This document shows positions 3,731 to 63,500 of a stretch of DNA of 64,000 nucleotides, piece after piece; the first letter of the stretch is position 1, and each line of letters begins with the position of its first letter. The stretch spans positions 310,001 through 374,000 of the forward strand of contig NZ_AP024202.1 in the NCBI RefSeq assembly GCF_021654855.1, given 5' to 3'. The stretch is from Thiomicrorhabdus immobilis. Lineage in GTDB: Bacteria; Pseudomonadota; Gammaproteobacteria; Thiomicrospirales; Thiomicrospiraceae. A program made the translations under genes and the position numbers. The notes below the pieces were generated by a model. That model searched no databases. It saw only the letters and a program-made list of their open reading frames with translations, and had not been told where the DNA came from.

Positions 3731-4921
3731 TTAGATGGCTTTGTGTAACGCCTGAATTAATTGCGAGTCGCTCAAGGTGACTGAATTACCCAACATGCTG
3801 CCACTACGGCAATTTTCAATCACAGGTGTAATATTTTCTGTTGTCAGGCCAAAGTCGGCCAAGCCTTGAGGTGTATATTTGATTGCATATTCTTCTAATA
3901 ATGTGACCAGGCCTGGTAACAATTCATTAGCCGACTGGTTTGGGTTGAGAAGCAAGCTAACCTGTTCGTATTTAAGTAAAGTATCTAGTGCATGCTGGGT
4001 TGGTAATGCTTGTAGGCTTTCAATATTGGCTTGGGTAATCGGCGCTAATAGACGCGCGCAGACAATACCATGCGGTGCTTCAAAAAAGGCACCGATGGGT
4101 CCGGCTAACCCGTGCACGGCTCCCAGTCCGGCATTCGCCAAAGTGGTGCCCGATAAGGATGCAGCCAACATCAAATTGCTGTAACCGGTTTTTTGGCGTT
4201 GTTCATCATTGGAGTCTATGTCTGAAAAGGCGTCTTTAAACAGAGTCATGCCCTGCCAGGCTAAAGCATCGGTAATAGGGTTGGGTTTTAAGGTCGTATA
4301 GGATTCGAGCAACTGGGTGAATGCATCCATGCCGGTTGAATAGAGCACGTCCTTTGGGCAGGATATTAAGAGTTCTGGGTCCAACCAGGCCTGTTTGGCT
4401 AGCAGTTTATTGTCACGAAACGACTTCTTGAAATAACCGATTCTTGATAAAACCGCATTTTTAGTGGTTTCGCTTCCGGTGCCTGCTGTTGTCGGGATGG
4501 CAATAAAAGGGCAGGTTTCCACGTGAAACGGCTTGCCTGCACCAACGCCTTCTAGATAGTCCATCACCGATGTTTGGCTAGGAAGCAATCCGGCAACCGC
4601 TTTTGCGGCATCTAAAACGCTCCCGCCTCCCAAGCCAATCACCATGTCGCTATCGCTATCACACTCTTTAACGATATTGTCGACCACTTCCGGGGACGGT
4701 TCGCCAGAGACGATAAAATGTTTTACTTCGCAAAAGGATTCAAACGTTTGAAATAGAACATCTCCAAACTCACCAGGGTGCGCCAGAGTTTTGCTGGTAA
4801 TCAAAACCACCATCTCAGGCTTAGATTGTTGAATGCTTTCAATGAGTTTATGACGAATCCCCCAGCCAAAGTGGATAAGTGGCATCGGCGCGAATTCAAA
4901 TGGCATGATTGTCTGTGTCAT
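3731..4921 (-). CDS. Iron-containing alcohol dehydrogenase family protein
   Basis: 396 residues, the usual length of group III (iron-dependent) alcohol dehydrogenases. The NAD(P)-binding GGGSVLDAAKAVAG motif (about residue 98), TTAGTGSETTK, and the metal-binding region HGLAGPIGAFFEAPHG (about residues 270-285) are visible. The first ligand segment, usually DALTH, reads DAFTQ, so one of the classical metal-binding histidines is a glutamine. Some family members share this, but it leaves the metal and substrate uncertain. It starts 39 bp after the rep stop and is probably co-transcribed with it. A perfect copy of the ACCAGGCCTGGT palindrome lies inside the gene (3906-3917), where it encodes PGLV. 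The substrate cannot be named. Confidence 0.85.
   Translation of the reverse strand: MTQTIMPFEFAPMPLIHFGWGIRHKLIESIQQSKPEMVVLITSKTLAHPGEFGDVLFQTFESFCEVKHFIVSGEPSPEVVDNIVKECDSDSDMVIGLGGGSVLDAAKAVAGLLPSQTSVMDYLEGVGAGKPFHVETCPFIAIPTTAGTGSETTKNAVLSRIGYFKKSFRDNKLLAKQAWLDPELLISCPKDVLYSTGMDAFTQLLESYTTLKPNPITDALAWQGMTLFKDAFSDIDSNDEQRQKTGYSNLMLAASLSGTTLANAGLGAVHGLAGPIGAFFEAPHGIVCARLLAPITQANIESLQALPTQHALDTLLKYEQVSLLLNPNQSANELLPGLVTLLEEYAIKYTPQGLADFGLTTENITPVIENCRSGSMLGNSVTLSDSQLIQALHKAI
3906..3917. repeat. Iterated palindrome ACCAGGCCTGGT (intragenic copy)
   Basis: Perfect 12-bp copy inside the alcohol dehydrogenase gene. On the minus strand it is read as PGLV. Confidence 0.95.
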
Positions 4922-4960
4922 TGAAAGCTCCTTGAATAAGGTGAATGTTGTTGGTTAAGT

Positions 4961-6994
4961 TTAATTCTTTTTAAGGAAGGACTTCAAATTCGCTATATGG
5001 GCATTACCGGTTTGCAACTGCTCCTCTTTGGAAACCACTACACCCGGTTTACCTTCCCATTGTAACGATTCAGCGGGCAGTTCCTCTAAAAAACGACTCG
5101 GTTCACAGGCCATGTCTTCACCATATTTACGGCGTTTGGTGGCGTAAGTCATCGTTAAAGAGCGTTGTGCCCGGGTAATGCCAACATAAGCTAAACGGCG
5201 TTCTTCTTCCAGGCCTGGTGATTCCAGGTTTTGTTTGTGTGGCAGCAGCTCCTCTTCCATACCGATCAGGAAAACGTGTGGAAACTCGAGTCCTTTTGAC
5301 GCATGCAGGGTCATTAGGCTGACCATGTCATGCTCTTTTTCAGACTCATTGCGCTCCATCATGTCCATTAACGCCATATGGGTCACAATGGTTTCAAGAC
5401 GTTTCTCTTCACCATCTTCTTCCAAGGCCTTTTTGACGATACGTTCAATCCAAAGAATCAGGTCGCGTACGTTGTTGATTCTGCGTTCGGCACTTTTCGG
5501 GTTGCTAGCGTTTTCATGAATCCAGTTGTCGTACTCGATTTTTTCAACCAGTTGGCGCACAAAAGAGGGCACTTCTTCGCCTTGGGCGCTGTCCGCTTCT
5601 TGAATCCAGCCCAGCAGCTGTTGGCCGAAGTGTTGCACACGTTTCAAGGCTTTGTCCGAAAGAATGGTGGTCAGGCCAAATTCTTGAGTCGCATCGAATA
5701 GGCTGATACCTCGGCCGGTGGCATAGGTGGCCAATTTCTCCAAGGTTGATGCGCCTATTTCTCGGCGTGGCGTGTTGACAATTCTCAGGAACGCCGCGTC
5801 ATCATCCGGATTGACGATAATACGCAGATAACTCATCACATCTTTGATTTCGGCATGGTCAAAAAAGGACTTTCCACCAGAGATGACATACGGAATGTTC
5901 TGTTCACGCAACGCACGTTCCATTAAACGAGCTTGGTGGTTTCCTCGGTAAAGTATGGCGTAATCGCGGTTTTTGGTCTTATTCTTGAATTTATGCACAA
6001 TGATTTCTGAAACCACACGCTCGACTTCTTGGTTTTCATTGGCACAGGCGATGACACGCAAAGGGTCGCCGGCACCCATCTCACTCCATAGGGTTTTTTC
6101 AAACACGTGCGGGTTATTGGCAATCAACTGGTTGGCGGATTTCAAAATACGATTGGTAGAACGATAGTTCTGTTCAAGCTTAATCAGCTCTAACGCAGGA
6201 AAATCCTCCTTTAGCAGTGCCAAGTTTTCCGGTTGGGCTCCACGCCATGCATAGATCGATTGGTCGTCATCGCCCACCACGGTGAAACGTGCCTGTACTC
6301 CAACCAACTGTTTAACCAAAGCATACTGTGCGGCATTGGTATCTTGATACTCATCCACCAAGAGATAGCGTACTTTATTCTGCCACTTTTGCAGGATCTC
6401 CGGGTTTTCATTAAACAGTTTCACCGGTAAGCCAATCAAATCATCAAAGTCTACCGCATTGTAGGCCTTAAGCTGTTTTTGGTACGCCTGGTAAAGAATC
6501 GCACGCGCTTGTTGCTGTGCATCTTCGGCTTTGTTAATCGCCTCTTCCGGTGAGATGTGGGCGTTTTTCCAGTTGGAGATGTCCCACTGCACACCATCCA
6601 ATACTTCCGGGTCGATGGTTTGTCTAAGCATCAATTCTTTTAAGATTTGCCCGCTGTCTGCGGCATCCATAATCGAAAAGTTCGATTTATAACCTAACGC
6701 TTTATACTCACGGCGGATGATATTCAATCCTAAGTTGTGAAAAGTAGAAACGTTCAAACCCGTGGTGTTCTCGTTTTTCAACAACTTGGTCACACGCTCT
6801 TTCATCTCTTTGGCCGACTTGTTGGTAAAGGTCACGGCGTAGATATGGTGTGATTTGACATCACATTGGCGAATCAAATAAGCGATTTTTTCGGTAATTA
6901 CGCGTGTTTTACCCGAGCCAGCGCCGGCCAAAACCAGGGCGGGAGTATCAATGTGTTTTACAGCTTGGCGTTGTCTTTCGTTTAAACTATGCAT
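4961..6994 (-). CDS. rep: ATP-dependent DNA helicase Rep (UvrD/Rep superfamily 1)
   Basis: 677 residues, close to E. coli Rep. All superfamily 1 motifs are present: Walker A AGAGSGKTRV (about residues 22-31), Walker B LVDEYQDTN, motif III GDDDQSIYAWRGAQ, motif IV NYRS, motif V LMTLHASKGLEFPHVF and motif VI RRLAYVGITRAQRSL. Rep is a 3'-5' helicase that helps the replisome move past bound proteins. UvrD and PcrA are paralogues. Rep is preferred because of the compact 677-residue length, and because the C-terminus is short and lacks a PcrA/UvrD-type tail. A near copy of the palindrome (core 5209-5218) is read here as SPGLE. Confidence 0.9.
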   Translation of the reverse strand: MHSLNERQRQAVKHIDTPALVLAGAGSGKTRVITEKIAYLIRQCDVKSHHIYAVTFTNKSAKEMKERVTKLLKNENTTGLNVSTFHNLGLNIIRREYKALGYKSNFSIMDAADSGQILKELMLRQTIDPEVLDGVQWDISNWKNAHISPEEAINKAEDAQQQARAILYQAYQKQLKAYNAVDFDDLIGLPVKLFNENPEILQKWQNKVRYLLVDEYQDTNAAQYALVKQLVGVQARFTVVGDDDQSIYAWRGAQPENLALLKEDFPALELIKLEQNYRSTNRILKSANQLIANNPHVFEKTLWSEMGAGDPLRVIACANENQEVERVVSEIIVHKFKNKTKNRDYAILYRGNHQARLMERALREQNIPYVISGGKSFFDHAEIKDVMSYLRIIVNPDDDAAFLRIVNTPRREIGASTLEKLATYATGRGISLFDATQEFGLTTILSDKALKRVQHFGQQLLGWIQEADSAQGEEVPSFVRQLVEKIEYDNWIHENASNPKSAERRINNVRDLILWIERIVKKALEEDGEEKRLETIVTHMALMDMMERNESEKEHDMVSLMTLHASKGLEFPHVFLIGMEEELLPHKQNLESPGLEEERRLAYVGITRAQRSLTMTYATKRRKYGEDMACEPSRFLEELPAESLQWEGKPGVVVSKEEQLQTGNAHIANLKSFLKKN

Positions 6995-7088
6995 GGGTGA
7001 TTAAGTCGGGTACGCTTTTTAAATTCGAGGTTGTAGAAAAGGTACAATATGATAATTCAAATTGAACAAGATTACTTTGGGAAATAAC

Positions 7089-7673: not shown

Positions 7674-7692
7674 GACGGTTTTTGTTGGATTA

Positions 7693-7710
7693 CTTACCAG
7701 GCCTGGTAAG
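7693..7710. repeat. Iterated palindrome, 18-bp extended copy
   Basis: CTTACCAGGCCTGGTAAG, a perfect 18-bp inverted repeat 20 bp after the methyltransferase stop. A T-rich stretch (ATTCATTTTT) follows, so it may also act as a weak terminator. Confidence 0.95.
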
Positions 7711-7777
7711 ATTCATTTTTAAAATAAAATACAAACAACGCGACATTATTTATATAAGCGTAAATCAGGAGTTATAG

Positions 7778-8785: not shown

Positions 8786-8842
8786 TCATTGACTTGTAAA
8801 TACGGTTTGCTATTTTTAACAGGCAGATAAGGTAGGGTGGTT

Positions 8843-9298
8843 ATGCGGAGTACATGGATTAAAGCGCCGTTTTTGGTAGCGATAATGTTAAGTCTATTAG
8901 CCTTGATTGGGTGCAGTAAAGCGCCTGTGCAAATTACCTCGGCTAAAGTGGTTAGCGGTTTAGACAAAGGGTCGGGTAACTTCGATAGGGTTTTGCAGAT
9001 CTGTTTTGACAAGCCATTGACCTCAACCTACTATCATAAGATTGCGATTATCACCAAAGAGAACGTCAAAATCACCGGGTTTGGCACCTTACGTCCATTA
9101 GCGTCCGATCCCGATAATAAATGCCACCTACGTAACGTCTATTTGTACATCCATAAGGATTCGCCAGTGGATGCACGTCAGTTGATTAAAGACTATGTCG
9201 TGCCGGGTAATATCCGTCAGGTTTTAGTGCAAATCTATAATGAAAAACCACAAGGTAAAGAGCTGCCAATCGCGGAGAAAATTTTTACCGATTTATAG
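8843..9298 (+). CDS. Predicted lipoprotein of unknown function
   Basis: 151 residues from the ATG at 8843, which has a ribosome site (AAGGTAGGG); a GTG two codons upstream is less likely. A typical lipoprotein signal ends in the lipobox LIGC-S (Cys about residue 25), so the mature protein should be lipid-anchored. The rest is a small, probably beta-rich domain with two cysteines (ICFDKP and NKCHLR). No family recognised. It lies downstream of the Tim44-like gene in the same direction, with 57 bp between them. Confidence 0.7.
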   Translation: MRSTWIKAPFLVAIMLSLLALIGCSKAPVQITSAKVVSGLDKGSGNFDRVLQICFDKPLTSTYYHKIAIITKENVKITGFGTLRPLASDPDNKCHLRNVYLYIHKDSPVDARQLIKDYVVPGNIRQVLVQIYNEKPQGKELPIAEKIFTDL

Positions 9299-9355
9299 GT
9301 GGGTTGGCTCACAGGTAGCCAATTTACAATGAATGTCATTCCAAATCTATACATC

Positions 9356-9367
9356 ACCAGGCCTGGT
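9356..9367. repeat. Iterated palindrome ACCAGGCCTGGT plus adjacent partial copy
   Basis: Perfect 12-bp copy in the gap between the lipoprotein gene and truD. Four bases later a second partial copy begins (TACCAGGCCT, 9371-9380). The two could pair as a longer hairpin with a T-run after it, giving a possible terminator for the upstream gene. Confidence 0.95.
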
Positions 9368-9448
9368 ATCTACCAGGCCTTTTCATTTGTGTTGGATGTT
9401 ATCAAGTACGAAGGCTGATGCATCTTTTAAAAGTTCTATGAGAATTCT

Positions 9449-10666
9449 ATGTCGCAACAATCAATTATGGTAAAGCAGGGCGATTTTTCAACCTTAGCCT
9501 ATGTTAATGGTCAGCCTCAGTTTAAAGGAAAGTTTAAAACCGTTCCTGAAGACTTTAAGGTCATTGAGCAGATCGCCTATGAGTTAAGTGGCGAAGGAGA
9601 GCATCTCTGGTGTTGGGTCGAAAAACGTGGAGAAAATACCGATTGGGTCGCGGGAAAGTTGGCCAACTGGGCGGGCACATCCAAGGCTAATGTAGGGTTT
9701 GCCGGGCAAAAAGACCGTCAGGCGGTCACTCGGCAATGGTTCAGTATTCAGCTGCCGGGTAAAGCCGACCCCAATCCAGATGATTTACATGTTGAGGGGG
9801 TGAAAATCCTCAAAATGGTTCGCCATAATCGCAAACTCCAGCGAGGAGGTTTGGCAGGGAACCGTTTTGAATTGGTTATTCGAGACATTGAACCTATCGT
9901 GCAAAACGAGGCGTTTTCGTTGGAGGCGGTCAAGCATGAACTGGAAACGCGATTACAGCAACTGGCTTTGATGGGTGTGCCCAATTATTTTGGTGAGCAA
10001 CGTTTCGGTCACAACGCCAATAACCTCAGAGAGGGTGAAAAACTGTTAACGGCAGACCCGCGTGATTCCTCGGCAAGAAAAGGCCGTGGAAAAAACCGTA
10101 GGGGCGGTAATCGTAATCAACAGAGTTTGTATATCTCCGCTTTGCGTTCTTGGATGTTCAATGATCTATTAAGCCAAAGAATTCAACAGCATGTCTGGAA
10201 CCAGGTTTTGCCAGGAGATATTGTACAGCTGACCGGTTCAAGCAAATGGTTTGTTGCGGATGATCAACAGGATTTGGCCGAACTTCAACAACGAGTTGTC
10301 GATGGGGATTTAAGCCCGACAGGTGGTTTGTTTGGAGATGGTGTCTTGCCGACACAAGCTCAAGCATTGGCGTTGGAGAGCAAAGTGGTCGAAAGTTACC
10401 AGGCCTGGTGTGATGGGTTAGCCAAAAACAGGGTCAAACAAGATAGAAGGGCGTTAATCTTGAAACCGGAGGGCTTGCAATGGTCTTTTGACGATTCAGA
10501 GCAGCAAACAGCGGGTTTGGGTGACGGTGATGGGCAAGCTGGATGTCATCGACCCGTATGCAACCTGCATTTAAGTTTCACCCTTCCAGCCGGCAGTTTT
10601 GCCACCATGGTATTGCGCGAAATTCTGCAGGTTGAAACTGTGAAAATTCATGCGAACGATGTTTAA
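9449..10666 (+). CDS. truD: tRNA pseudouridine(13) synthase TruD
   Basis: 405 residues. The TruD signature GFAGQKDRQAVTRQWFS (about residues 90-106) contains the catalytic Asp of the KDR motif. The C-terminal part SFTLPAGSFATMVLREIL is also typical. TruD makes pseudouridine at position 13 of tRNA-Glu. The protein is longer than E. coli TruD (349), partly through a basic insert near residue 210 (KGRGKNRRGGNRNQ) that is likely a flexible loop. A copy of the iterated palindrome (10398-10409) lies in frame and is read as YQAWC. There is no clear ribosome site in front of the ATG. Confidence 0.93.
   Translation: MSQQSIMVKQGDFSTLAYVNGQPQFKGKFKTVPEDFKVIEQIAYELSGEGEHLWCWVEKRGENTDWVAGKLANWAGTSKANVGFAGQKDRQAVTRQWFSIQLPGKADPNPDDLHVEGVKILKMVRHNRKLQRGGLAGNRFELVIRDIEPIVQNEAFSLEAVKHELETRLQQLALMGVPNYFGEQRFGHNANNLREGEKLLTADPRDSSARKGRGKNRRGGNRNQQSLYISALRSWMFNDLLSQRIQQHVWNQVLPGDIVQLTGSSKWFVADDQQDLAELQQRVVDGDLSPTGGLFGDGVLPTQAQALALESKVVESYQAWCDGLAKNRVKQDRRALILKPEGLQWSFDDSEQQTAGLGDGDGQAGCHRPVCNLHLSFTLPAGSFATMVLREILQVETVKIHANDV
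10398..10409. repeat. Iterated palindrome ACCAGGCCTGGT (intragenic copy)
   Basis: Perfect 12-bp copy inside truD, read as YQAW. This reading phase differs from the PGLV phase seen in the dehydrogenase and the CnoX-like gene. Confidence 0.95.
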
Positions 10667-10754
10667 ACTAGATTGGCGTGTTGTGATAGTAAGGTTACAA
10701 TAAGTTTGCTTTAAGTAATCCATTTTATTTAAACAGAATTTTCTCAACTAGCAA

Positions 10755-13640: not shown

Positions 13641-13658
13641 ATTGGAATATTGCTCTGT

Positions 13659-14279: not shown

Positions 14280-14282
14280 AAA

Positions 14283-14306
14283 AAAGCGACCAGGCCTGGT
14301 CGCTTT
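14283..14306. terminator. Convergent-gene terminator built on the iterated palindrome (24-bp perfect inverted repeat)
   Basis: The 12-bp palindrome at 14289-14300 is extended to a perfect 24-bp inverted repeat. It begins 4 bp after the mobA stop and lies between the convergent mobA and hisI genes. A-tracts on the left and a short T-tract on the right suit a bidirectional terminator. This is the longest extension of the palindrome in the window. Confidence 0.7.
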
Positions 14307-17042: not shown

Positions 17043-17054
17043 ACCAGGCCTGGT
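17043..17054. repeat. Iterated palindrome ACCAGGCCTGGT (convergent gap)
   Basis: Perfect 12-bp copy between the convergent PlcP-like and GNAT-like genes. Confidence 0.95.
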
Positions 17055-18186: not shown

Positions 18187-19503
18187 TTATTCACCGAACA
18201 TTAAGGTTTGTTGTGAATGTTGCATTGATTGGTTGTGTGGTTTGCGAATATAGAGATGCACACCACCATAAATCCCCGAACGGTCTTGTTTTGTCCAGGC
18301 CTGGTTGTTTTCTTGGTTGGTTTGCCATTGGTTAAGGATCTCATCGGCTAGCTTGGTTTCCAATGGTGAGGTTTCACCTGCCGTTCTAAATACCACTCTC
18401 GCATTCGGCATAGCGGTGCGATTCACCTCTTGCCAAAGTTCGGTCAATTGGCGTTCATCCATCCAGTCTTGAGCATCCAAGAACAGGTAGGCGTTTAAGC
18501 TGTTGTCCGGTAATGATTTCAAACGTTCGGTCATAGAGGTATGGCTAACCTTGACCTTGCTCTGGTTGCTTTTTAAAACCGCAAAGGCCTCTTTTTTTAG
18601 ATATCGCGGTATGGCTTTGCGGTGTTTTATGTCGTATTCGCGATTAAATGCCTGCCAAGCAAAGTAGTTTTCATCTAACGGGAAGTCGCAAGCCAATTGA
18701 CGGGCACGTTCCTTGAGTAAGTTGTGCATGCCTAACTTTGAATCTTGAGACTGTTTATCCATTTCATCAAATTGTGCCGGAGGGATGCCTAGGCTATACA
18801 TGACCATGGAACGGTTGCATAGAAACTTGAGCAATTTAGTATCAAAGATTGGCGCAACATGCTGATCAAACCCTTGTTGTTGCTCTTCTAAGGTACGCGC
18901 CTGCATGATTTTAGAAATATCATAACCTAGACGTTTTCCGGTCCAGTGAATCAAGCCGATAAAATGACCCAAAAGACCGTGCTTATAAAAACCGTTGGTG
19001 AAATACGTAATACGTTTCTTGCTCCATGGTCTTTCCTTAGACTCCCAGTATGCCAAAGTTTCATTATCCAAGTGTGGCTTGATATAAGCCTCATAGCGGT
19101 CCAGGTTCTTTAGCAGATTGGCTTTGCCGAAAAAATCAAAAAAAGCTTCTGAATTAGGTAGGTGTTCAATCGCTACCAGTTTTAATTTGATTAAAGCAAT
19201 ATGGGCTTCATTTAGGTCAACCACTTCAATCAATTCAGGTTGTTCGGTTAAGTAATTCAAAACATTGCAACCGCCAGAAGAGATAGTAAAAACGCGTGAT
19301 TGATTGTTGATTTGTAAGGCTTGAATGTCCACTTCAGGATCTTCCCAAATCTGTGGATACACCAAACGGTCAAACCAGGTGGTGAACAATCGGTCTAAAA
19401 AGCCTTTACGACTGAATATGGAGGTGTTGTTTACAGCAGAATCAAGCAACGTTTTGGTTTTAGGAGTTTGGGTAAGCGCATCAAGTGTGGTCGATGAGTT
19501 CAT
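18187..19503 (-). CDS. btaA: BtaA-like S-adenosylmethionine:diacylglycerol 3-amino-3-carboxypropyltransferase (DUF3419)
   Basis: 438 residues. DUF3419/BtaA features are visible: the N-terminal segment WFDRLVYPQIWEDPEVDIQAL, the SAM-binding TISSGGCNVLNYL and VVDLNEAHIALIKLKL, and a second Rossmann-like part ending AYLFLDAQDWMDERQLTELW. BtaA transfers the 3-amino-3-carboxypropyl group of SAM to diacylglycerol, giving diacylglyceryl-homoserine, the precursor of betaine lipid DGTS. BtaB, which adds three methyl groups, is missing nearby. A PHO-box-like triple repeat lies 79-107 bp upstream. The gene contains a near copy of the palindrome (core 18295-18304), read as NQAWT. Together with the PlcP-like gene this suggests phospholipid replacement when phosphate is scarce. 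Confidence 0.8.
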   Translation of the reverse strand: MNSSTTLDALTQTPKTKTLLDSAVNNTSIFSRKGFLDRLFTTWFDRLVYPQIWEDPEVDIQALQINNQSRVFTISSGGCNVLNYLTEQPELIEVVDLNEAHIALIKLKLVAIEHLPNSEAFFDFFGKANLLKNLDRYEAYIKPHLDNETLAYWESKERPWSKKRITYFTNGFYKHGLLGHFIGLIHWTGKRLGYDISKIMQARTLEEQQQGFDQHVAPIFDTKLLKFLCNRSMVMYSLGIPPAQFDEMDKQSQDSKLGMHNLLKERARQLACDFPLDENYFAWQAFNREYDIKHRKAIPRYLKKEAFAVLKSNQSKVKVSHTSMTERLKSLPDNSLNAYLFLDAQDWMDERQLTELWQEVNRTAMPNARVVFRTAGETSPLETKLADEILNQWQTNQENNQAWTKQDRSGIYGGVHLYIRKPHNQSMQHSQQTLMFGE

Positions 19504-19581
19504 TTTCAGCCTTCTTTAAAAGTGGTAATGACTTTTGTGGAACTTAATGAGGCTATCTTACAGATTGGTTTTTACTGCAAT

Positions 19582-19610
19582 GTGACAGTTGTGTAACGGC
19601 TTGATGACGG
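19582..19610 (-). promoter_or_regulatory. PHO-box-like tandem (three half-sites, 11-bp period) upstream of btaA
   Basis: Read on the minus strand, CGTCAT, CGTTAC and TGTCAC occur with starts exactly 11 bp apart (plus-strand 19604-19609, 19593-19598, 19582-19587). They point towards btaA. A TAAGAT hexamer 21 bp downstream could be the -10 if a fourth, weaker half-site lies between. The same architecture precedes the PlcP-like gene. Confidence 0.65.
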
Positions 19611-19649
19611 GTGTTTCAGGAGTTAACAGGCCTGGTAATCTCTAAACTG

Positions 19650-19661
19650 ACCAGGCCTGGT
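19650..19661. repeat. Iterated palindrome ACCAGGCCTGGT with a near copy 20 bp to its left
   Basis: Perfect 12-bp copy, with AACAGGCCTGGTAA starting at 19625 as a one-mismatch neighbour. Both lie in the gap between glycerate kinase and btaA, where they could terminate the glycerate kinase transcript. Confidence 0.95.
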
Positions 19662-19721
19662 GGATTATTTAGAAAGGCGGACTCGAGGTTTATTTGGCTT
19701 TATTGCGACTTGTATGGTCTG

Positions 19722-29232: not shown

Positions 29233-29250
29233 CTTACCAGGCCTGGTAAG
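29233..29250. repeat. Iterated palindrome, 18-bp extended copy (within the ect operon)
   Basis: CTTACCAGGCCTGGTAAG, identical to the copy at 7693, in the 114-bp gap between ectC and ask. With no T-tract after it, it could act as a partial terminator, an mRNA processing or stability element, or a protein site. Confidence 0.95.
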
Positions 29251-31696: not shown

Positions 31697-33142
31697 ATGA
31701 TATTGACCACCTTTGTGTTATTTCTATTGGTGTTTTTTGCTGTCGGTTTATCTAGTTACTGGGCCAGTCGAAAAACCACAAGTGACTACTTGGTTGCAGG
31801 TAAAAACATGTCGCCCGCTTTGGTTGGCTTGTCGGCAGTAGCCACCAATAATAGCGGGTTTATGTTTATAGGCATGATTGGCGCCACCTATAGCATGGGA
31901 TTGTCCTCTATTTGGATTATGGTCGGTTGGATTTTTGGCGATTGGTTGGCGCAGAGGCATACAGTGCCGGTGATTCAGGATATTGGCCACAAACGGCAGG
32001 TACACTCGTTTAGTGGATTGTTGACCTATTGGATTCTCCAAAATGGTACTTCTTCTCAACTAGAGCAACAAGATGATTCAAACCGTCCAGCAAGACGTTT
32101 CAGACAAATTGTCGGTCTGTTTACGGTAGTGTTTCTTACTGTGTACGCGGCGGCTCAATTAAAAGCCGGTAGTAAAGCAACAGAAGTCTTGTTGGATTGG
32201 TCGCCAGAAACGGGGGTGATTCTATCGGCGATTATGATTTTTTTCTACAGTATGGCGGGCGGTTTACGGGCCTCTATTTGGACCGATGTCGCACAGTCGA
32301 TTGTCATGTTGAGCGGTATGGCGTTGATGGTGGTGTTTGGTGTTCAAGCGGTGGGTGGCCCTATCGTTTTTTGGCAGGCATTGCATGGCGTTTCAGGCTC
32401 TTATGTCGCTTGGTTTCCACAAGGTTTTGGCTTTATCGAGGCTGGGCTATTTGTATTAGGCTGGGTGGCTGGTGGAATGGGGGTGCTAGGTCAGCCACAT
32501 ATTATCATCCGTTTTATGACCTTGTCTAAGGACTATACGGCCAAACAGATGCAACGGTATTATTACGGGTGGTTTATCATTTTCTATGGTTTGACCATTT
32601 TGGCAGGCCTGGTCAGTCGAATACTGATGCCGGAATTGACGAGTTTTGATGCCGAATTGGCTTTACCGTCGCTGGCTGAGCAATTGATGCCCGAGATTTT
32701 TGTCGGATTGATTTTGGCGGCTTTATTTGCGGCCACCATGTCGACTGTCGACTCGTTAGTGCTTTCGTGTTCAGCTGCTTTAAGTCGAGATTTAACCCGT
32801 CAACCAATCGAATCCCTGTTTTTGACAAAAGTGGCGACTGCCTTCATTTTATTGGCCGCGTTGAGTTTAGCTTTGAGCAATAATCAAACGGTATTCAGTT
32901 TGGTGTTGGACGCTTGGGGTTGGTTAGGTTCAGCATTCGCACCGTTGATGTTGTGGTTGGCTTGGGGGCGACGCATCACTCTGGGTTGGGCAATGGCAAG
33001 CATGTTGTTCGGCATGATGGTGTTTGCGGTGTTCGCTTATGGCGGCCTGTTAAGTCAGATTTATTCCATTACGTTTGGCTTTATCGGCGGTTTTGCTGTA
33101 CTTATTTTTAGCCAGTCTGCGGGTAAACGCCGTTCTATCTGA
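31697..33142 (+). CDS. Sodium:solute symporter (SSS family)
   Basis: 481 residues with about 13 hydrophobic membrane helices. The family features are the N-terminal SSYWASRKTTSDYLVAGKNMSPALVGLSAVATNNSGFMFIG region (helix 2, sodium site), GWVAGGMGVLGQPHIIIRFM and ATMSTVDSLVLSCSAALSRD (helix 8, sodium-binding Ser). It resembles the PutP (proline) branch by eye. It lies 57 bp after the TPR gene, at the end of the ectoine gene run, which suggests uptake of a compatible solute such as proline or ectoine. The substrate is inferred from context only. A near copy of the palindrome occurs at 32604, read as AGLV. Confidence 0.85.
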   Translation: MILTTFVLFLLVFFAVGLSSYWASRKTTSDYLVAGKNMSPALVGLSAVATNNSGFMFIGMIGATYSMGLSSIWIMVGWIFGDWLAQRHTVPVIQDIGHKRQVHSFSGLLTYWILQNGTSSQLEQQDDSNRPARRFRQIVGLFTVVFLTVYAAAQLKAGSKATEVLLDWSPETGVILSAIMIFFYSMAGGLRASIWTDVAQSIVMLSGMALMVVFGVQAVGGPIVFWQALHGVSGSYVAWFPQGFGFIEAGLFVLGWVAGGMGVLGQPHIIIRFMTLSKDYTAKQMQRYYYGWFIIFYGLTILAGLVSRILMPELTSFDAELALPSLAEQLMPEIFVGLILAALFAATMSTVDSLVLSCSAALSRDLTRQPIESLFLTKVATAFILLAALSLALSNNQTVFSLVLDAWGWLGSAFAPLMLWLAWGRRITLGWAMASMLFGMMVFAVFAYGGLLSQIYSITFGFIGGFAVLIFSQSAGKRRSI

Positions 33143-33184: not shown

Positions 33185-33196
33185 ACCAGGCCTGGT
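33185..33196. repeat. Iterated palindrome ACCAGGCCTGGT (convergent gap)
   Basis: Perfect 12-bp copy in the 57-bp gap between the convergent symporter and redoxin genes. It is placed where a shared terminator would be expected. Confidence 0.95.
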
Positions 33197-37183: not shown

Positions 37184-38434
37184 ATGCAGATTTTTTTGGT
37201 GGGTGGTGCAGTTAGGGATGCGCTGTTAGGCGGTAAGGCTTACGACCGTGATTGGGTAGTGGTAGGTGCGACACCAGAACAGATGTTGGCGCAAGGCTAT
37301 CAACAGGTGGGTAAAGATTTTCCGGTATTTCTGCATCCTGAAACTAAAGAGGAATATGCGTTAGCCCGAACCGAGCGTAAAGCCGGTGTCGGTTATCATG
37401 GCTTTGAGGTGTTTGCCGATCCAAATGTAACTCTTGAAGAGGATTTGATTCGCCGCGACTTGACCATTAATGCGATGGCTCAAGATACTGAGGGTAAGGT
37501 AATCGACCCTTATTCAGGCCTGGAAGATTTGCAAAACCGTATTTTAAGGCACGTTTCAGATGCGTTTGCCGAAGATCCGTTAAGGGTGTTAAGGGTCGCA
37601 CGCTTTGCAGCTAAACTTGCACCTTATGGTTTTGAGTTGGCGCCAGAAACTCAGACGCTGATGACCGATATGGTGGCTTCGGGTGAGCTGGAGGATTTAA
37701 CTCCTGAACGGGTTTGGCAAGAGGTTTTCAAAGCCTTAGGTACGCAAAAGCCGAGTGTGTTTTTTGAGGTTTTGGATAAGGTCGGTGCGGTAGAGGTGTT
37801 GTTCCCCGAGTTGTATAACTTGCACGGGGTTACCCAGCCGATAAAACATCACCCTGAAGGCGATGTTTGGATTCACACCATGATGGTGTTGGATGCCGCT
37901 GCTAAATTATCCCCCTTAGAAGAGGTTCGGTTTGCGGCTTTGGTGCACGATTTGGGTAAAGGCATTACCCCTAAAGAGCTTTGGCCAAGCCATAAGGGGC
38001 ACGAAAAAGCTGGAGTGCCGTTGGTTCAGGCCTTAGGTTCACGATACAGGTTGCCGAAAAAGCTGCAAATCATGGCGGAAAAGGTGACGGAGTATCATGG
38101 TTTGATTCACCAGGGGTTAAACTCGGAAGGGTTGCCTCACCTTAAACCTCAGACTTTTCTAAAGGTGCTAAAGGCTTGTACGGCCTTAAAAAACCCTGAA
38201 GGCTTTAAAGATATTTTATTGGCTTGTGAGGCCGATGCCAAAGGCCGTTTGGGTTTTGAAGAGCAATTTTATCGACAAGCCCCTTTTTGGTTGGGGGTTT
38301 TAGATGCCGCTTTACGAATCAATAACCAAGAGATTTTAGCCACCGGTGTGCAAGGAGCAGAAATCGCCGAGGCGATTGAGCAAGCCAGAGTCGAGCGAAT
38401 TAAAGCCTTTATTCACACTTATTCGTCGAAATAA
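37184..38434 (+). CDS. cca: CCA-adding tRNA nucleotidyltransferase with HD domain
   Basis: 416 residues. The nucleotidyltransferase head [25 protein letters not shown] holds the metal-binding Asp pair (DRD). RRDLTINAM and [15 protein letters not shown] are family motifs. A C-terminal HD phosphohydrolase domain follows ([17 protein letters not shown] and [11 protein letters not shown]), as in the E. coli enzyme. It adds and repairs the CCA end of tRNAs. A partial copy of the palindrome (37515) is read as SGLE. Confidence 0.95.
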
Positions 38435-38465: not shown

Positions 38466-38477
38466 ACCAGGCCTGGT
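38466..38477. repeat. Iterated palindrome ACCAGGCCTGGT
   Basis: Perfect 12-bp copy 32 bp after the cca stop, preceded by a half copy (TTTACCAGT). It lies between cca and the RND adaptor gene. Confidence 0.95.
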
Positions 38478-39764: not shown

Positions 39765-42700
39765 GCCAGTTTGAATCTCTAGAGAGGGATGATAAGGATA
39801 TCCATCCAAAGGAAAAAGCCTTTAAATCCAGTGGTATCATCGGGATGTTTGCCCGCCATAAAGTGGCGCCGAACCTGTTGATGTTGATTATGATCCTTTC
39901 CGGAATTGTCGCATTGATGAAATTGAATGTGCAGTTCTTTCCCTCGTTTGAATTGGACTACGCTTCGGTTCGTGTTATTTGGCCAGGAGCCAATGCTCAG
40001 GATGTGGAGAAAAGCATCACTGATCCAGTTGAGCGTGTCTTGCGAAACCTGGATAACCTTGATGAGATGACCTCGACCTCATCGCTTGGGATTTCCTCGA
40101 TATCTTTGAAGTTCAAAGAAGGTACCGATATGATCGAGGCGATCGATCAAATCAATCAGCGGGTCGGAGAGTTAAGGAATTTACCGCAAGATTCACAAAA
40201 GCCGATTATAGAACGTGTGGTTCGTTATGAGTCTATCGCCCGTATATTATTGGTTTCTGATAAAGGTAGCCTGGAAGAACTGCGTCCTTTGGCGAGAAGT
40301 TTTGAGCGGCAGTTATTGGATGCGGGGATTGATAAGGTCAATTTTAAAGGGCTTCCTGAAGAGGAGATGGCGGTTGAAATCCCCCAGGCCGCTTTGGAAC
40401 AGCATAATTTAACTTTGGAGTCGATTGGTAATCAGTTAGCCGGCATGAGTCGTGATTATCCTGCAGGCTCGGTGGGTGACAGTGATAGCGTCAGAGACTT
40501 ACGCGCCTTGGAGCAAAAGCGAGATGAAGTCGCTTTTGAGCAAATGCCGTTGGTGGTCAATGACTCCGAAAACCTCTCATTGGGTGATATTGGGCAAATT
40601 GAGCGGCGCCCAATCAAGGATGCGCCTTATCTGACGGTCGAGGGTTCGACCGCGATAGAAATGCAGTTGATGCGCTCTGAGAGCGGCGATACCTTGAAAT
40701 CTTCTAAGATTATGCAAAACTGGTTGCTGGATGCCAAAGCGCAGTTGCCGGAAGGGGTGCATTTACAAGTCTATGACGAAACTTGGTCGTTAGTGAATCA
40801 ACGGATTATGTTGCTGGTCAATAATGGTGTTGGCGGCTTGCTGTTGGTTGTTTTGATTCTGTATATCTTTATGAATGGACGGGTGGCCTTTTGGGTTGCG
40901 GTGGGAATTCCTGTCTCCTTTATGGCCACCTTGATGATTATGTATTTGGCAGGCGGTTCCATCAATATGGTGAGTCTGTTCGGTCTGATTATGGCTTTGG
41001 GAATCATCGTTGATGATGCCATCGTGGTCGGTGAAGATGCATTATCCCATCATGAGATGGGTGAGCCGGATTTACAGGCGGCTGAAGGTGGTGCTCATCG
41101 AATGTTAGGCCCGGTTACCGCGTCTTCATTAACCACGGTGGCAGCATTTTTGCCTCTGATGATGATTGGTGGCGAGATGGGGAATATCTTATTTGCGATT
41201 CCTTTGGTGATTATTGCGGTAATCTTTGCGTCATTGATTGAAAGTTTTACCATCCTTCCTGGGCATTTGAAACATGCGCTTAAAGGCGTGAAAAAAGCCG
41301 AGCCGGGTTCGATTCGTTACCGTTTAGAACATGCTATCGACCATTTTAGGCATCATCAATTCAGAAACGTCATCCGTTGGGTGTTGAAGAATCGTTCAAT
41401 TACTTTGGCGACGACTTTGGCGTTGATGATTTTTGTGGTCAGTCTATTGGCAGGAGGTAGACTTGGTTTTGTGTTCTTCCCTTCACCCGAGTCCACTAAA
41501 ATTAATGCCGATGTGCGTTTTGTGGCAGGTACACCAAGTTCGGTTTCAGCAGATTATGTGGATAGACTGTATGCCGCTCTGATTAAGACCGAGCAGGAGT
41601 TGGAGCCTGGGATTTTAAAGGCGGTGATTGTCCACTACAATGAAACCACCAGTCAGCCTGGCGCGAACTACGGTGGTATCAATATCGAGTTGGTTGAACC
41701 GGATTTACGCTCAACACGTAATGCCGCATTTATTAAAGCTTGGCAGAAAAACGCCGGTAATGCACCAGGCCTGGACACGTTGACGATTGCTTCGCCAAGA
41801 AATGGTCCGCCGGGAAGTGATGTGGATATCCGCTTAACCGGTGCTGATCCAATGACATTGAAGCAGGCCTCTTTGGATTTACAGCAGGTCTTGGGGCAAA
41901 TCCAAGGGGTGAGCGGTGTGCGTGATGACCTTCCTTTTGGGCGTGATCAGTTGATTTACCGTTTGACACCGCAAGGTGAAGCGCTTGGCTTCACTTATGT
42001 TTCCTTGGGGCGTCAATTGTCGGATGCTTTCTCGGGTCGTTTGGTGCAGATTTTTACCGATGGTGAAGATGAAGTCGAGGTGCGTGTTCAATATCCAAAA
42101 TCGGAGCAGGTCTCTTTAGCAACTATCAATAAAATGCAGGTGGTTTCGCCAGCCGGTGAACGGGTATCGTTGAATACCGTGGCAAATTGGACGACCCAAC
42201 GGGGCTTTGACGCGATTCGTCATGTCGATGGACAACTTGCGGTCACGGTTTTGGGTGATGTCGATTCCAATGCCAATAACCCTAATGCCATTTTGGGCTC
42301 TTTACAGCAAACGGCTTTACCTGAATTGGAAGCACAATATGGTATCAGTTACTCTCTAGAAGGGCAGAATGCACGCCAAGCTGAGGCGATGGCGGATATG
42401 AAAATCGGTCTTTTGATTGGCTTGTCGATGATTTATATTGTGTTGGCTTGGGTGTTTGGTTCTTACGGTTGGCCTTTGGTGGTGATGATGGCGATACCGT
42501 TTGGATTGGTGGGTGCGATTCTCGGTCACTGGTGGATGGGGCTGGATATGACGATTCTTTCTTTATTCGGTTTTTTTGGTTTATCGGGTATCGTGGTGAA
42601 CGATTCGATTATTCTGGTCAGTTTTTACAAGAGCTTGCGGGCAAGTGGTGTCGCAATCAATAAAGCTTTGGAAGAGGCGGCTGTGCAAAGAGTGCGGGCG

Positions 42701-43312: not shown

Positions 43313-45301
43313 ATGGCAACTCGTAGAGATCTAGCAAATGCTATCCGTGCGTTAAGTATGGATGCAGTTCAAAAAGCAAATTCTGGTCACCCTGGTGCAC
43401 CGATGGGTATGGCGGATATCGCTGAAGTTCTGTGGAATAGCCACATGAAATTCAATCCGACAAACTCTAAGTGGGCAGATCGCGATCGTTTTGTACTTTC
43501 AAACGGTCACGGCTCAATGCTTATGTATTCTCTATTGCACCTTTCTGGTTATGACCTAAGCATGGACGATATCAAGCAGTTCCGTCAGTTACACGCTAAA
43601 ACAGCGGGTCACCCAGAGTATGGTTATGCTGAAGGTATTGAAACTACAACTGGTCCTTTAGGTCAGGGTATCACTAACGCGGTTGGTATGGCGATTGCAG
43701 AGCGTACTTTAGCGGCACAGTTCAACAAGCCTGGTCACGAAATCGTAGACCACAACACTTATGTGTTCATGGGTGATGGTTGTTTAATGGAAGGCCTTTC
43801 TCACGAAGCGTGTGCAATGGCTGGTACTTTAGGTCTTGGTAAGTTAATCGCTTTCTGGGATGACAACGACATCTCTATCGATGGTAACATCGGTGACTGG
43901 ATGGAAAAAGGCGTTCCTGGACGTTTCGTTTCTTATGACTGGCACGTTATTCCTAACGTTGATGGTCACGATGCTGATGCAATCAATGCGGCAATCGAAG
44001 AAGCTAAGAAAGTAACAGACAAGCCTACGCTTATCTGTACTAAGACGGTTATCGGTTTCGGTTCTCCTAACAAGTGTGGAACTTACTCTTGTCACGGTGC
44101 ACCTTTAGGTGATGAAGAAATCGCTCTAGCTCGTAAAGAACTTGGTTGGACTGCAGGTCCATTCGAAATTCCAGAAGATATCTATGCTGGTTGGGATCAC
44201 AAAGCACAAGGTGCTAAAGATGAAGCGGCTTGGAATGAAAAATTTGCAGCTTATAAAGCGGCTTATCCAGCAGAAGCGGCTGAATTCGAACGTCGTATGG
44301 CGGGTGAATTACCAGCTAACTTCGAAGTAGATATGGATGCGTTCATCGCTAAGACTCAGGCTGAAATGCCTAAGATTGCTTCTCGTCAAGCTTCACAGAA
44401 AACAATCGAAGAACTAGGTAACCTATTACCAGAGATGTTCGGTGGTTCTGCTGACTTGACTGGTTCTAACTTAACCAACTGGTCTAAGATGGTTAAAGTG
44501 AACAAAGAGAACGCGAACGGTAACTACCTATCTTGGGGTGTACGTGAATTCGGTATGGCTCACATGATGAACGGTATGGTTCTTCATGGTGGTTTCAAAG
44601 TGTTCGGTGGAACTTTCTTCATGTTCATGGAGTTCATGCGTAACGCCTTACGTATGTCTGCATTGATGAAAATCGGTACTATCTATGTTTACACTCACGA
44701 CTCTATCGGTCTAGGTGAAGATGGTCCTACTCACCAGCCTGTTGAGCAGTTAGCGACAATGCGTGTTATCCCTAACTTCCAAACTTGGCGTGGTTGTGAT
44801 GCGGTTGAGTCTGCTGTTTCTTGGAAACGTGCAATCATGCGTAGTGATGCTCCGACTGCATTGGTATTCTCTCGTCAGGCTCTTGAGCCAATGGAGCGTA
44901 CACCTGAGCAAGTTAAGAACATCGAAAAAGGTGGTTATGTACTGAAAGATTGTGAAGGTACACCTGATATCATCTTTATCGCGACGGGTTCTGAAGTGGG
45001 TCTAGCGGTTGAATCTGCAGCGACAATGAGCGAAAAAGTTCGTATCGTTTCTATGCCTTGTACCGATGCTTATGACGAGCAAGATCAAGCGTATAAGGAT
45101 TCTGTTCTTATCCCTGGTGTTAAGCGTGTTGCAATCGAAGCGGGTGTGGCTGATGGTTGGTATAAATATGTTGGTCTTGAAGGTGGTACGGTTTGTATGT
45201 CTACTTTCGGTGAATCAGCACCAGCTGACGAGCTATTCAAAGAGTTCGGTTTCACAGTAGAGAACGTTGTTGCTACAGCGAAAAAAGTATTAGGTAAATA
45301 A
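43313..45301 (+). CDS. tkt: Transketolase
   Basis: 662 residues. Thiamine-diphosphate features include [42 protein letters not shown], the GDGCLMEG metal-binding motif and [19 protein letters not shown]. Transketolase moves two-carbon units in the regenerative phase of the Calvin cycle and in the pentose-phosphate pathway. In this neighbourhood (gap, pgk, fba downstream; cbbQ/cbbO further on) a Calvin-cycle role is likely. Codon choice differs from neighbouring genes, with GGT, CGT and AAC-rich usage typical of a highly expressed gene. The ribosome site is GAGGAAGT. Confidence 0.96.
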
Positions 45302-45330: not shown

Positions 45331-45368
45331 GTTGTTTACTGGATAGATCTTTAAATTTTTTATTAAGT

Positions 45369-45400
45369 CAGGCCTGGTAATTATTTAGCAGGCCTGGTAA
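45369..45400. repeat. Two truncated copies of the iterated palindrome in tandem
   Basis: CAGGCCTGGTAA occurs at 45369-45380 and again at 45389-45400, 20 bp apart in direct orientation, just before the gap start. Each lacks the left AC of the full 12-mer. Confidence 0.85.
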
Positions 45401-47886: not shown

Positions 47887-47923
47887 ACCAGGCCTGGTGA
47901 GTTTAAAACCCACCAGGCCTGGT
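47887..47923. repeat. Pair of perfect iterated palindromes forming a long hairpin
   Basis: ACCAGGCCTGGT occurs at 47887-47898 and again at 47912-47923, 13 bp apart. The flanks are also inversely repeated (GTGAGTTT and AAACCCAC, one mismatch), so the pair can fold as a single long hairpin of about 17 bp per arm. It is in the pgk-pyk gap. Confidence 0.95.
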
Positions 47924-53725: not shown

Positions 53726-53750
53726 TCAAAGGGTTTAGCTCTTTAGGTTA

Positions 53751-54019: not shown

Positions 54020-54892
54020 ATGGATAAGACTATCCATAATTACGAAGTTTCCCAAGGTAACTTTAACTCCATCGTTATCATGAACTCATACAAGTTACCT
54101 GTGTTTGCACTGTTTATGAGCCCGAGCATTGGTGCTTGTATTACGCTTGAAAATAATATGGCTAATTTGGCAGAAGAGTTTGCCGGGCAGTTCATATTGG
54201 CTCGAGTCGATGTTGATATGGAACCAGATTTGCGTGAAGAATACCAAATTCAAAACGTACCTACCTTGAAAATATTCAAAGATGGTCAGATGGTTCATCA
54301 AGAAGTAGGTTTGCTAAATGAACAAGAATTAGCGGACTTGATGAAAGCTCAAGGTTTTTATCGACAGTCCGATGAGATGCGTGAACAAGCGCGACAAAAA
54401 CACATCTCAGGCGATACTTCGGCGGCGATTCAATTGTTAACAGAAGCGATACAGCAGGACCCAAGCAATACACGTGTTGCTATGGATATGATCCAGATTC
54501 TATTAGATATTAATATTGTTGACCAGGCGAAAACCTTATTTAACCGTTTACCGAATAAAGATAAAGAATCTGTCATAGGTAAATCATTGATTGGTCAGAT
54601 TACATTTAAAGACTTGGCTGCCAATACACCAGGCCTGGTAGCTTTGGTAAATCAAGTTCAATCAGAGCCAGGAAACTTTGATGCACGTTTTGATTTAGCG
54701 CTTTGTTATGTCGCCGAACATGGTTATGAAGAAGCGATGAATCAAATCTTTGAAATCTTGGATAAAGAGCCTGGTTATAAGCAAGGTGCAGCGCAGGAGC
54801 TGGCGGTTACCATCATAAATATGCTTGAACCCAACAACCCTCAATTGGCACAGGATTCACGAAGAATTTTAAGCAATATGCTAGCTCAGTAA
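54020..54892 (+). CDS. CnoX/YbbN-like thioredoxin-TPR chaperone
   Basis: 290 residues. An N-terminal thioredoxin fold (about 5-115: VFALFMSPSIGACITLENN, ARVDVDMEPDLREEYQIQNVPTLKIFKDG) is followed by TPR repeats to the end. The active-site segment reads SIGAC where thioredoxins have WCGPC, so only the second Cys remains and normal disulfide reduction is unlikely. E. coli CnoX also lacks a standard CXXC and acts as a holdase that hands clients to GroEL. A perfect palindrome copy lies in frame at 54628 (TPGLV). No partner genes are adjacent. Confidence 0.85.
   Translation: MDKTIHNYEVSQGNFNSIVIMNSYKLPVFALFMSPSIGACITLENNMANLAEEFAGQFILARVDVDMEPDLREEYQIQNVPTLKIFKDGQMVHQEVGLLNEQELADLMKAQGFYRQSDEMREQARQKHISGDTSAAIQLLTEAIQQDPSNTRVAMDMIQILLDINIVDQAKTLFNRLPNKDKESVIGKSLIGQITFKDLAANTPGLVALVNQVQSEPGNFDARFDLALCYVAEHGYEEAMNQIFEILDKEPGYKQGAAQELAVTIINMLEPNNPQLAQDSRRILSNMLAQ
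54628..54639. repeat. Iterated palindrome ACCAGGCCTGGT (intragenic copy)
   Basis: Perfect 12-bp copy inside the CnoX-like gene, read as TPGLV. Confidence 0.95.
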
Positions 54893-54991
54893 ATGCTCAT
54901 GGGTAAAAATGGCATTACTTTGAAAATTAGGATGCTTCATAAGGTTTAATTTATTATCATGGTCATGAAATAAGTAATTGATAAGCATGTT

Positions 54992-56092: not shown

Positions 56093-56113
56093 GTTAATTT
56101 CAAGGATGTCTAG

Positions 56114-60310: not shown

Positions 60311-60353
60311 GGTTAAGTATCTGAATAGCAGAAAATATTAACTTAGCTGACAA

Positions 60354-60386
60354 TAAAAAACCGCCTAGATTCTGGCGGTTTTTTTA
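60354..60386 (+). terminator. Rho-independent terminator after the hybrid kinase
   Basis: Stem AAAAAACCGCC / GGCGGTTTTTT (60355-60365 with 60374-60384) with an 8-nt loop and a T-run. The A-tract side could also serve the convergent gene at 60432. Confidence 0.9.
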
Positions 60387-60431
60387 TGAGTAATAAAGGG
60401 CAATTAGGTTTTTAACTATGGTTTTTTGCCG

Positions 60432-60995
60432 TTAAACATAGTCGCTACTATCCAACTCTTCCATATCCGTGCTGCTGAAACGACAAACGTTTACGCTAAT
60501 GTAGTCGTCATAGGCGCTACCTGAAGAGACCCAGTTTTTGACCTTGTTCTCAACCGCCTGTGAAAGCACCTTTTCATTCAAAACCAGACAGAAGCCATAC
60601 TTGAATCTTGGGCTTTCATTGGTTTCGACAATGACGTCGCTCCCTTCAACAAATAACTTAACCGTCGCTTCCTGACCAGGCATGGTCACAAAAGCATTGG
60701 CACCATGCTCTTTGATCAAGTTCTGTAATTGGTTGTTGAAATGCATTTTGCTGATAGGGTTGTATTGGTAGTACTCTTGGATTAGGTCTTCAGCACGTTC
60801 GATTAATGACGCTTTCAATGCATCGCTTGAATCGAAGCTTTCATCACCGAGTTCAAAAATAACATAAGCTTGTTGTGACTTCCCTAAGGTTAGTCCCTTG
60901 TCTTCGTGAATGATTAGAGCAGCACCATCTAAAATTTCCTGATAGTTTTCATCAGAAAAATCGTTTAGAGCTTGGGTAAATTGTTCTGCGTTCAT
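60432..60995 (-). CDS. Hypothetical protein downstream of cbbO
   Basis: 187 residues, acidic, no signal peptide and no membrane segment. The predicted make-up is mixed helix and strand (MNAEQFTQALNDFSDENYQEI, QAYVIFELGDESFDSSDALKASL, VNVCRFSSTDMEELDSSDYV). I do not recognise a family or catalytic motif. It is on the same strand as cbbQ-cbbO but lies after their terminator, so it is probably transcribed on its own. Its clean length and ribosome site (AGGAATG) support a real gene. Confidence 0.65.
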   Translation of the reverse strand: MNAEQFTQALNDFSDENYQEILDGAALIIHEDKGLTLGKSQQAYVIFELGDESFDSSDALKASLIERAEDLIQEYYQYNPISKMHFNNQLQNLIKEHGANAFVTMPGQEATVKLFVEGSDVIVETNESPRFKYGFCLVLNEKVLSQAVENKVKNWVSSGSAYDDYISVNVCRFSSTDMEELDSSDYV

Positions 60996-61049
60996 GGTTT
61001 TGCATTCCTAAATGGTTTTGTAATTCGATAATTCTATCAGAATTAAAAA

Positions 61050-61084
61050 TAAAAAAACCTTAGTCAGAGGCTGACTAAGGTTTT
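61050..61084 (-). terminator. Rho-independent terminator of the cbbQ-cbbO operon
   Basis: A 14-bp stem (61054-61067 with 61071-61084; core CCTTAGTCAG / CTGACTAAGG) with a 3-nt loop and a long T-run on the minus strand. It lies 30 bp past the cbbO stop. Confidence 0.9.
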
Positions 61085-61113
61085 AGTTGAGTCAGTTGAA
61101 TTGACTGAAAATA

Positions 61114-63447: not shown

Positions 63448-63484
63448 AACATTATCCTTTACATTTTATGCTTGGGCCTGGTTG

Positions 63485-63500
63485 TTACCAGGCCTGGTAA
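63485..63500. repeat. Iterated palindrome, 16-bp copy between cbbQ and cbbO
   Basis: TTACCAGGCCTGGTAA, perfect over 16 bp, preceded by a fragment GGGCCTGGTTG. It sits inside an operon, so it is unlikely to be a full terminator. Confidence 0.95.

Follow-up and report, generated by a model that had tools for sequence, protein, structure and literature searches.

What a perfect 12-bp palindrome repeated at 14 places may be doing is the question raised by a 64,000-nucleotide stretch of DNA (the window) from the marine sulfur bacterium Thiomicrorhabdus immobilis, which corresponds to bases 310001–374000 of a single-contig genome of 2,539,444 bp. A sequence-only reading of the window had listed 14 perfect copies of the palindrome, ACCAGGCCTGGT, and all 14 are found at the starts that it gave. 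The palindrome proves to be part of a motif of about 24 bp that roughly half of the genomes in the family have accumulated throughout, at the level of nucleotides; the motif has species-specific spellings and is nearly absent from close relatives. The palindrome could well form the core of a tag that marks self-DNA for uptake across the genome, resembling the uptake signal sequences (USS) of Pasteurellaceae and the DNA uptake sequences (DUS) of Neisseriaceae but independent in origin and symmetric; the chance of this reading being correct appears to be about even.

The complete genome contains 446 copies of ACCAGGCCTGGT, compared with a Markov expectation of about 0.1–0.2 copies (scaled up from a 464-kb sample), and the reversed pattern, used as a control, is present in 0 copies. 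The sample, made up of the window plus twenty 20-kb stretches from the same genome, holds 92 copies versus 0.015–0.044 predicted by Markov models of orders 1–5, which were trained with the core masked. In 100 dinucleotide shuffles of the window the palindrome did not occur once, in agreement with the earlier estimate that a random 12-mer should be found there far less than once. The sequence-only reading had named two outcomes that would tell against it, namely a genome-wide count near the Markov expectation and a restriction of the copies to the window; the genomic count and the sample count show that neither is the case. The density is one perfect copy per about 5.7 kb and one copy of the core, CAGGCCTG, per 3.1 kb. 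The copies are spread over the chromosome, with 2–10 cores in each of the 20 samples of 20 kb and a variance below the mean. The longest copy-free stretch among the first 100 matches listed (34.9 kb, G000:C1:410570-445494) could be acquired DNA. A scan of the window with Rfam gave no match above the gathering score.

The 92 copies of the sample define the full motif of about 24 bp as AAAnYnACCAGGCCTGGTnRnTTT. It has a GGCC centre and ACC..GGT arms, followed outwards on either side by a purine and then a T-tract; no constraint is seen beyond about 24 bp in the aligned copies. The earlier observation that the dyad is conserved beyond the core is thus borne out. A purine occupies the second outward position in 174 of the 184 arms, and T the fourth, fifth and sixth positions in 110, 117 and 98 of them, respectively. 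The flanks are much alike in the 42 coding and the 49 intergenic copies, except that the fourth base on the 3′ side is less often T in the coding ones (17/42). This likeness inside and between genes ties the flanks to double-helix recognition rather than to a terminator. Perfect copies outnumber those with exactly one mismatch (92 vs 46 in the sample); in 37 of these 46, the mismatch affects one of the two outermost arm positions, and the core is nearly invariant among perfect and one-off copies. The two CCWGG sites of the palindrome, described earlier as overlapping, are in fact adjacent (CCAGG and CCTGG).

Genes were called with a simple codon-usage caller, a second version of which was used for density ratios. 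Noncoding DNA makes up 12.5% of the sample, yet 49 of the 92 copies are intergenic, 42 being coding and one lying on an edge. The ratio of intergenic to genic density is 8.4 for the 12-mer (about 8-fold) and 4.7 for the core. The intergenic excess reported for the window is real, with 11 of its 14 perfect copies outside called genes (those at 3906, 10398 and 54628 are inside), but this share of 79% exceeds that of the larger sample. Between genes, a stop codon lies no more than 80 nt before 36 of the 49 copies (29.6% expected), and convergent gaps contain 14 of the 47 placed copies, with 46 of 275 gaps being convergent. Within genes, 15 of the 42 copies lie within 100 nt of a gene end, compared with 7.8 expected for all genes or 9.1 for the same genes. 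The core occurs 93 times in the genes of the sample versus 7.4 expected from their proteins and codon usage, which indicates that the motif is forced on genes at the nucleotide level; eight control words occur at 0–1.7 times their own expectation in the same test.

In a search of 58 genomes with the 12-mer, that of the window included, members of the genus have between 0 and 718 copies; the 21 genomes that belong to other families in the class have 0 or 1. The distribution of CAGGCCTG in 62 family genomes is bimodal, with 236–1173 copies in 32 genomes and 0–74 in 30; the order-level count covered the same 62 genomes. Genomes rich in CAGGCCTG make up 15/32 of the window's genus, 7/11 of genus g6, 9/9 of g5, 1/1 of g3 and 0/9 of three other genera. 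Below, 34 genomes are called motif-bearing, namely these 32 and two with other forms of the motif (G023 and G020), and the other 28 motif-poor.

The forms in the latter two genomes were obtained from unbiased k-mer counts. G023 has a ACCGGCCGGT form with T-tract flanks, and T. cannonii (G020) has AAACTCAACAGGCCGGGT, which is asymmetric and conserved on one side only. Among five genomes modelled, the motif is palindromic in that of the window and asymmetric only in T. cannonii, where 13 of 15 coding copies of the one-sided form have the same orientation. In G005 and G025, CAGGCCTG is strict, with a leaning to AACAGGCCTGTT and looser arms, and G017 is alike in 20 kb. In seven motif-poor genomes (G026, G024, G031, G003, G013, G014 and G019), no 12-mer with at least four copies was found in 40 kb each.

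The Rep helicase encoded in the window is 85–94% identical to proteins from records under the names Thiomicrorhabdus, Thiomicrospira sp. WV30_bin5 and Hydrogenovibrio sp. UBA650, which marks the organism as Thiomicrorhabdus-like. A tree of this one gene, with 29 rows and 11 of 26 inner branches well supported, pairs like spellings together in part. T. cannonii groups with G005; Hydrogenovibrio sp. JE_KL2, whose 22-kb locus lacks the motif, groups with the motif-bearing G061 and G070; two metagenome-assembled genomes, also with 22-kb loci lacking the motif, adjoin T. arctica. On these placements, loss of the motif and change of its spelling probably happened on more than one occasion. The JE_KL2 locus (L020) contains 20 GGCC and 70 CCGG sites; this apparent avoidance of GGCC, perhaps via restriction, could be linked with motif loss. 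L130 (G030:C1:1-20000) contains 44 GGCC and no CCGG sites, which resembles restriction avoidance of CCGG. L139-L140 (G036:C1:1-40000) contains CCAGAACCAGAA repeat units, with several overlapping 10-mers at 15–18 copies. In a viral collection, the 14-mer ACCAGGCCTGGTAA matched 46 stretches, 44 with one 12-mer and two (L270 and L288) with two; no virus with a host-like set of motifs was found among them, these being stretches and not whole contigs. IMGVR_UViG_3300005470_000015 (31 kb; L261, L270), with three 12-mers in all and four cores in L270, may be or contain host DNA from a motif-bearing bacterium.

Twenty-one genomes, of which 15 are motif-bearing, were compared around the rep gene. In the gap between the gene at 8837–9298 and truD, a copy of the core is found in 12 of the 15 motif-bearing genomes and in none of the six motif-poor ones. 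The core there is CAGGCCTG, or CCGGCCGG in G023, where the copy lies just inside truD by reading; its arms vary, with for example AGCAGGCCTGGT in G017 and G025 and CCCAGGCCTGGT in G061. In the gap at 7696, the site is missing in G015, the nearest relative sampled, pointing to turnover. The gap at 19504–19721 is a clearer case than the truD gap of different spellings at one place: the window's own genome has two copies, G005 has ACCAGGCCTGCT, G017 has the GACAGGCCTGTT form and T. cannonii has an inverted pair of its own AACAGGCCGGGT.

Inside the rep gene, the peptide ESPGLEE is identical in 21/21 genomes. The eight genus members that use the ACCAGG spelling are the only genomes in which its codons contain CCAGGCCT, and six of them have CCAGGCCTGGA; CCAGGCCT is absent from these codons in the motif-bearing genomes with other spellings and in two g6 genomes. 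At the other two coding sites, the proteins of the 21 genomes align without insertion at the copy, leaving aside a deletion beside one copy in G018 and, in some copy-less genomes, a few additional residues further upstream. Judging from these three coding sites, it seems to be substitution and not insertion that gives rise to copies.

The three perfect copies inside genes of the window are located at 3906..3917, in an iron-containing alcohol dehydrogenase-like gene (3731-4921, minus strand); at 10398..10409, in truD (9449-10666, plus strand); and at 54628..54639, in a thioredoxin/tetratricopeptide repeat gene (54020-54892, plus strand). At the protein position of the first, a perfect copy is present in seven of the eight sampled genus members with the ACCAGG spelling (the window's own included; G010 is without it), and G017 has a one-mismatch copy. 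The gap copies are those at 7696..7707 (22 nt downstream of a stop), 9356..9367 (preceding truD), 14289..14300 and 17043..17054 (both in convergent gaps; the dyad of the former runs out to AAAGCG...CGCTTT), 19650..19661 (in the gap with the inverted pair in T. cannonii), 29236..29247, 33185..33196 (convergent gap, 3 nt from a stop), 38466..38477, 47887..47898 and 47912..47923 (a pair 3′ of the phosphoglycerate kinase gene) and 63487..63498 (16 nt downstream of a stop).

Ten degenerate copies had also been listed, and eight of them are within two mismatches of the 12-mer and two bases of the place given. One-mismatch copies are found at 5208..5219 (in the rep helicase gene, 4961-6994, minus strand, at the ESPGLEE peptide), 18294..18305 (coding), 19625..19636 (25 bp from the 19650 copy), 41764..41775 (coding) and 45387..45398, the last forming a pair, 20 bp apart in one gap, with the two-mismatch copy at 45367..45378. 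Two further two-mismatch copies are at 9372..9383, which adjoins the 9356 copy so that a hairpin between the two is possible, and at 32602..32613 (coding). The sites near 37515 and 62536, although they contain AGGCCTGG, differ from the 12-mer by more than two mismatches. The list was also incomplete; three coding copies can be added, at 4384..4395 (one mismatch), 43724..43735 (two mismatches, one in the core) and 60675..60686 (one mismatch, core changed).

The thousands-fold enrichment, the excess of perfect over one-off copies and the imposition on codons, with dialects among relatives, argue for a molecular drive and not for ordinary protein sites. Published work describes an excess of perfect over one-off copies as typical of USS and DUS, unlike regulator sites (PMC1626085). 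The combination of enrichment, strict consensus, codon imposition and dialects has been reported for USS and DUS (PMC1626085, PMC3630211) and, with a link to methylation, for the highly iterated palindrome HIP1 (PMC4390886). Pasteurellaceae uptake sequences are reported to be biased to gene ends (PMC2346458). Uptake sequences are also matched by the preference for gaps between genes, the AT-rich flank, the occasional role in terminators and the single orientation favoured by coding copies in T. cannonii. The earlier comparison with HIP1 and uptake sequences was accordingly well chosen, since enrichment, strong consensus and the differing spellings of relatives fit this class. It is the hallmarks held in common with USS and DUS that favour an uptake tag. 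This idea, one of several in the sequence-only reading, gains support; the overall interpretation given there is partly supported.

Under the uptake reading, a DNA-binding receptor of the uptake machinery would prefer the motif, and fragments carrying it would enter cells and recombine more often. Transformation would then drive the making and keeping of copies where protein and promoter constraints permit, mostly right after stop codons. A shift in receptor specificity would convert sites to a new spelling, and loss of uptake would leave sites to decay. Somewhat more tentatively, and with confidence a little short of even, the Thiomicrospira–Hydrogenovibrio–Thiomicrorhabdus group may possess a third, independently evolved and first palindromic family of uptake tags, with at least four spellings turning over, one lineage one-sided and a receptor unlike ComP.

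ComEC is present in 33 of the 34 motif-bearing genomes, that of the window included; the one genome where it is missing, G006, is a draft with 82% completeness. Several points weigh against an uptake tag. ComEC is also found in 23 of the 28 motif-poor genomes and does not separate the two classes. ComP_DUS (PF16732) was over the cut-off in 0/62 genomes, but the 14 control genomes were also silent and the sensitivity of the search is unproven. GspH/FimT was just over the cut-off in three genomes, all motif-poor, and offers no receptor. A prepilin pattern applied to 11 genomes yielded what look by eye like type II secretion pseudopilins, together with other, unassigned pilins; both kinds occur in motif-bearing and motif-poor genomes alike, and no candidate receptor emerged. 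Three of the 15 motif-bearing genomes have no core in the truD gap (half-motifs occur in G030 and G010 but not in G005), and the T. cannonii copy there, AACAGGCCTGGT, departs by one base from the consensus of that species. In one sample of G035, from another genus, 21 of 22 core copies are coding, contrary to the intergenic preference. USS and DUS are described as not palindromic (PMC1939737), and a dimeric protein inside the cell would account for the symmetry just as well. Finally, no report of uptake or competence in these bacteria is found among the papers listed.

The same searches gave one weak match to PF16732, in the motif-poor G019, and no match to PilY1, for which the controls were silent too. 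Four consecutive pseudopilin genes, belonging by eye to type II secretion, are located at 12279-14378 of L232 (G000:C1:2370000-2389999); the pattern detected no such four-gene cluster in the motif-poor G003 and G063 but did so in the motif-poor G019 and G024. An unusual pilin-like group, with members of 519 aa and 213 aa, occupies 4884-10973 of L233 (G000:C1:2022000-2036000), and genes like these are found in both motif-bearing and motif-poor genomes. A paper that seemed to suggest natural transformation in these bacteria was set aside, as the term occurs only in its reference list. Among the papers listed, none contains the 12-mer ACCAGGCCTGGT, and those on over-represented palindromes hold no report of the motif.

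The main rival to an uptake tag is a repeat of the HIP1 type, in which an orphan methyltransferase acting on a subsequence (GGCC or similar) would be coupled to mismatch repair or another biased process; the palindrome would be a by-product and the spellings would track changes of the enzyme. HIP1 is palindromic and extremely enriched, has alternates in some lineages and has one-off variants at outer positions (PMC4390886), all of which is seen here. Nevertheless, this explanation seems unlikely. PF00145 and PF01555 have no match in the window's genome (PF02086, the D12 family, which includes the GGCC enzyme of Anabaena (PMC4390886), was not searched), nor do these two families fit the motif in the genus, which weakens the reading. 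PF00145 is over the cut-off in 6/14 motif-bearing and 6/11 motif-poor genus members (25 searched), and PF01555 in 4/17 and 5/15 (32 searched). Both Dcm-type C5 methylation, an idea of the sequence-only reading for which this genome has no PF00145 cytosine methyltransferase, and N4/N6 methyltransferases of the PF01555 family were rejected on these grounds. Moreover, a HIP1-type process does not predict the T-tract flanks or the one-sided form of T. cannonii. A dimeric nucleoid or chromosome-organising protein whose binding sites are kept by selection chromosome-wide would explain the perfect dyad, the symmetric AT flanks, the length of about 24 bp, which is typical of a dimer, and the spread of copies over the chromosome. 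This is improbable, however, given that perfect copies exceed one-off copies 2 to 1, unlike regulator sites (PMC1626085), that the enrichment is thousands-fold, compared with about 6.7-fold for E. coli Chi (PMC1939737), that copies are biased to gene ends and to positions after stops, that the T. cannonii form is asymmetric and that many relatives manage without the motif.

A role as a transcription terminator or RNA 3′-end element is suggested by the concentration of intergenic copies shortly after stops and in convergent gaps, by the ability of some copies to pair with a second half-copy and by the truD gap of four of the six motif-poor relatives, which contains another hairpin with a T-run (by eye). 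As the primary function it is very unlikely: 42 of the 92 copies are coding with flanks that are alike, the sequence itself is fixed beyond what pairing needs, and among the 37 intergenic copies that follow a stop by no more than 120 nt, a T-run accompanies just seven and a second half-copy seven. The "uptake-sequence terminator" of the sequence-only reading thus applies to a minority of copies. Uptake sequences serve occasionally in terminators in Neisseria and Haemophilus (PMC1852404), and termination here is best read, by analogy, as a secondary use. A short mobile element, similar to repetitive extragenic palindromic elements and spread by a transposase, would account for a palindrome at high copy number, but the constraint ends at about 24 bp and no insertion accompanies the copy at the three coding sites; this origin is hardly credible.

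In the literature surveyed, self-DNA uptake tags are described from just two families (PMC1626085). If the uptake reading is true, a third origin, in which the tag is symmetric and its spelling changes within a single genus, would allow tests of the origin of uptake bias, of receptor co-evolution and of species barriers, in a setting of free-living, chemolithoautotrophic vent bacteria. If the motif is linked to methylation instead, it would represent a HIP-like system outside cyanobacteria, equally useful, as close relatives differ in whether they carry the motif and in how it is spelled.

Compared with known systems, the motif is similar to USS in that near-perfect copies number in the hundreds, the consensus is strong and the flank AT-rich, copies favour intergenic DNA and the ends of genes and originate by substitution, and the spelling differs by clade. 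USS, however, are asymmetric, with one-sided flanks and about 1 copy/kb (PMC1626085), whereas the palindrome is symmetric in most species sampled and sparser. It shares with DUS the 10–13 bp scale, the dialects with a conserved core, of which DUS have eight (PMC3630211), and inverted pairs tied to terminators. DUS differ in being non-palindromic and without an AT flank (PMC1939737, PMC1626085) and in having ComP as a known receptor in Neisseriaceae, with no ComP over the cut-off here (controls silent). As with HIP1 of cyanobacteria, there is a palindrome with huge enrichment whose alternates take over in some lineages; HIP1 is shorter (8 bp) and tied to GATC/CGATCG methyltransferases (PMC4390886), unlike the present genome with its lack of PF00145 and PF01555 matches. 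Chi is likewise a short word spread genome-wide, but it is asymmetric and mildly enriched (PMC1939737).

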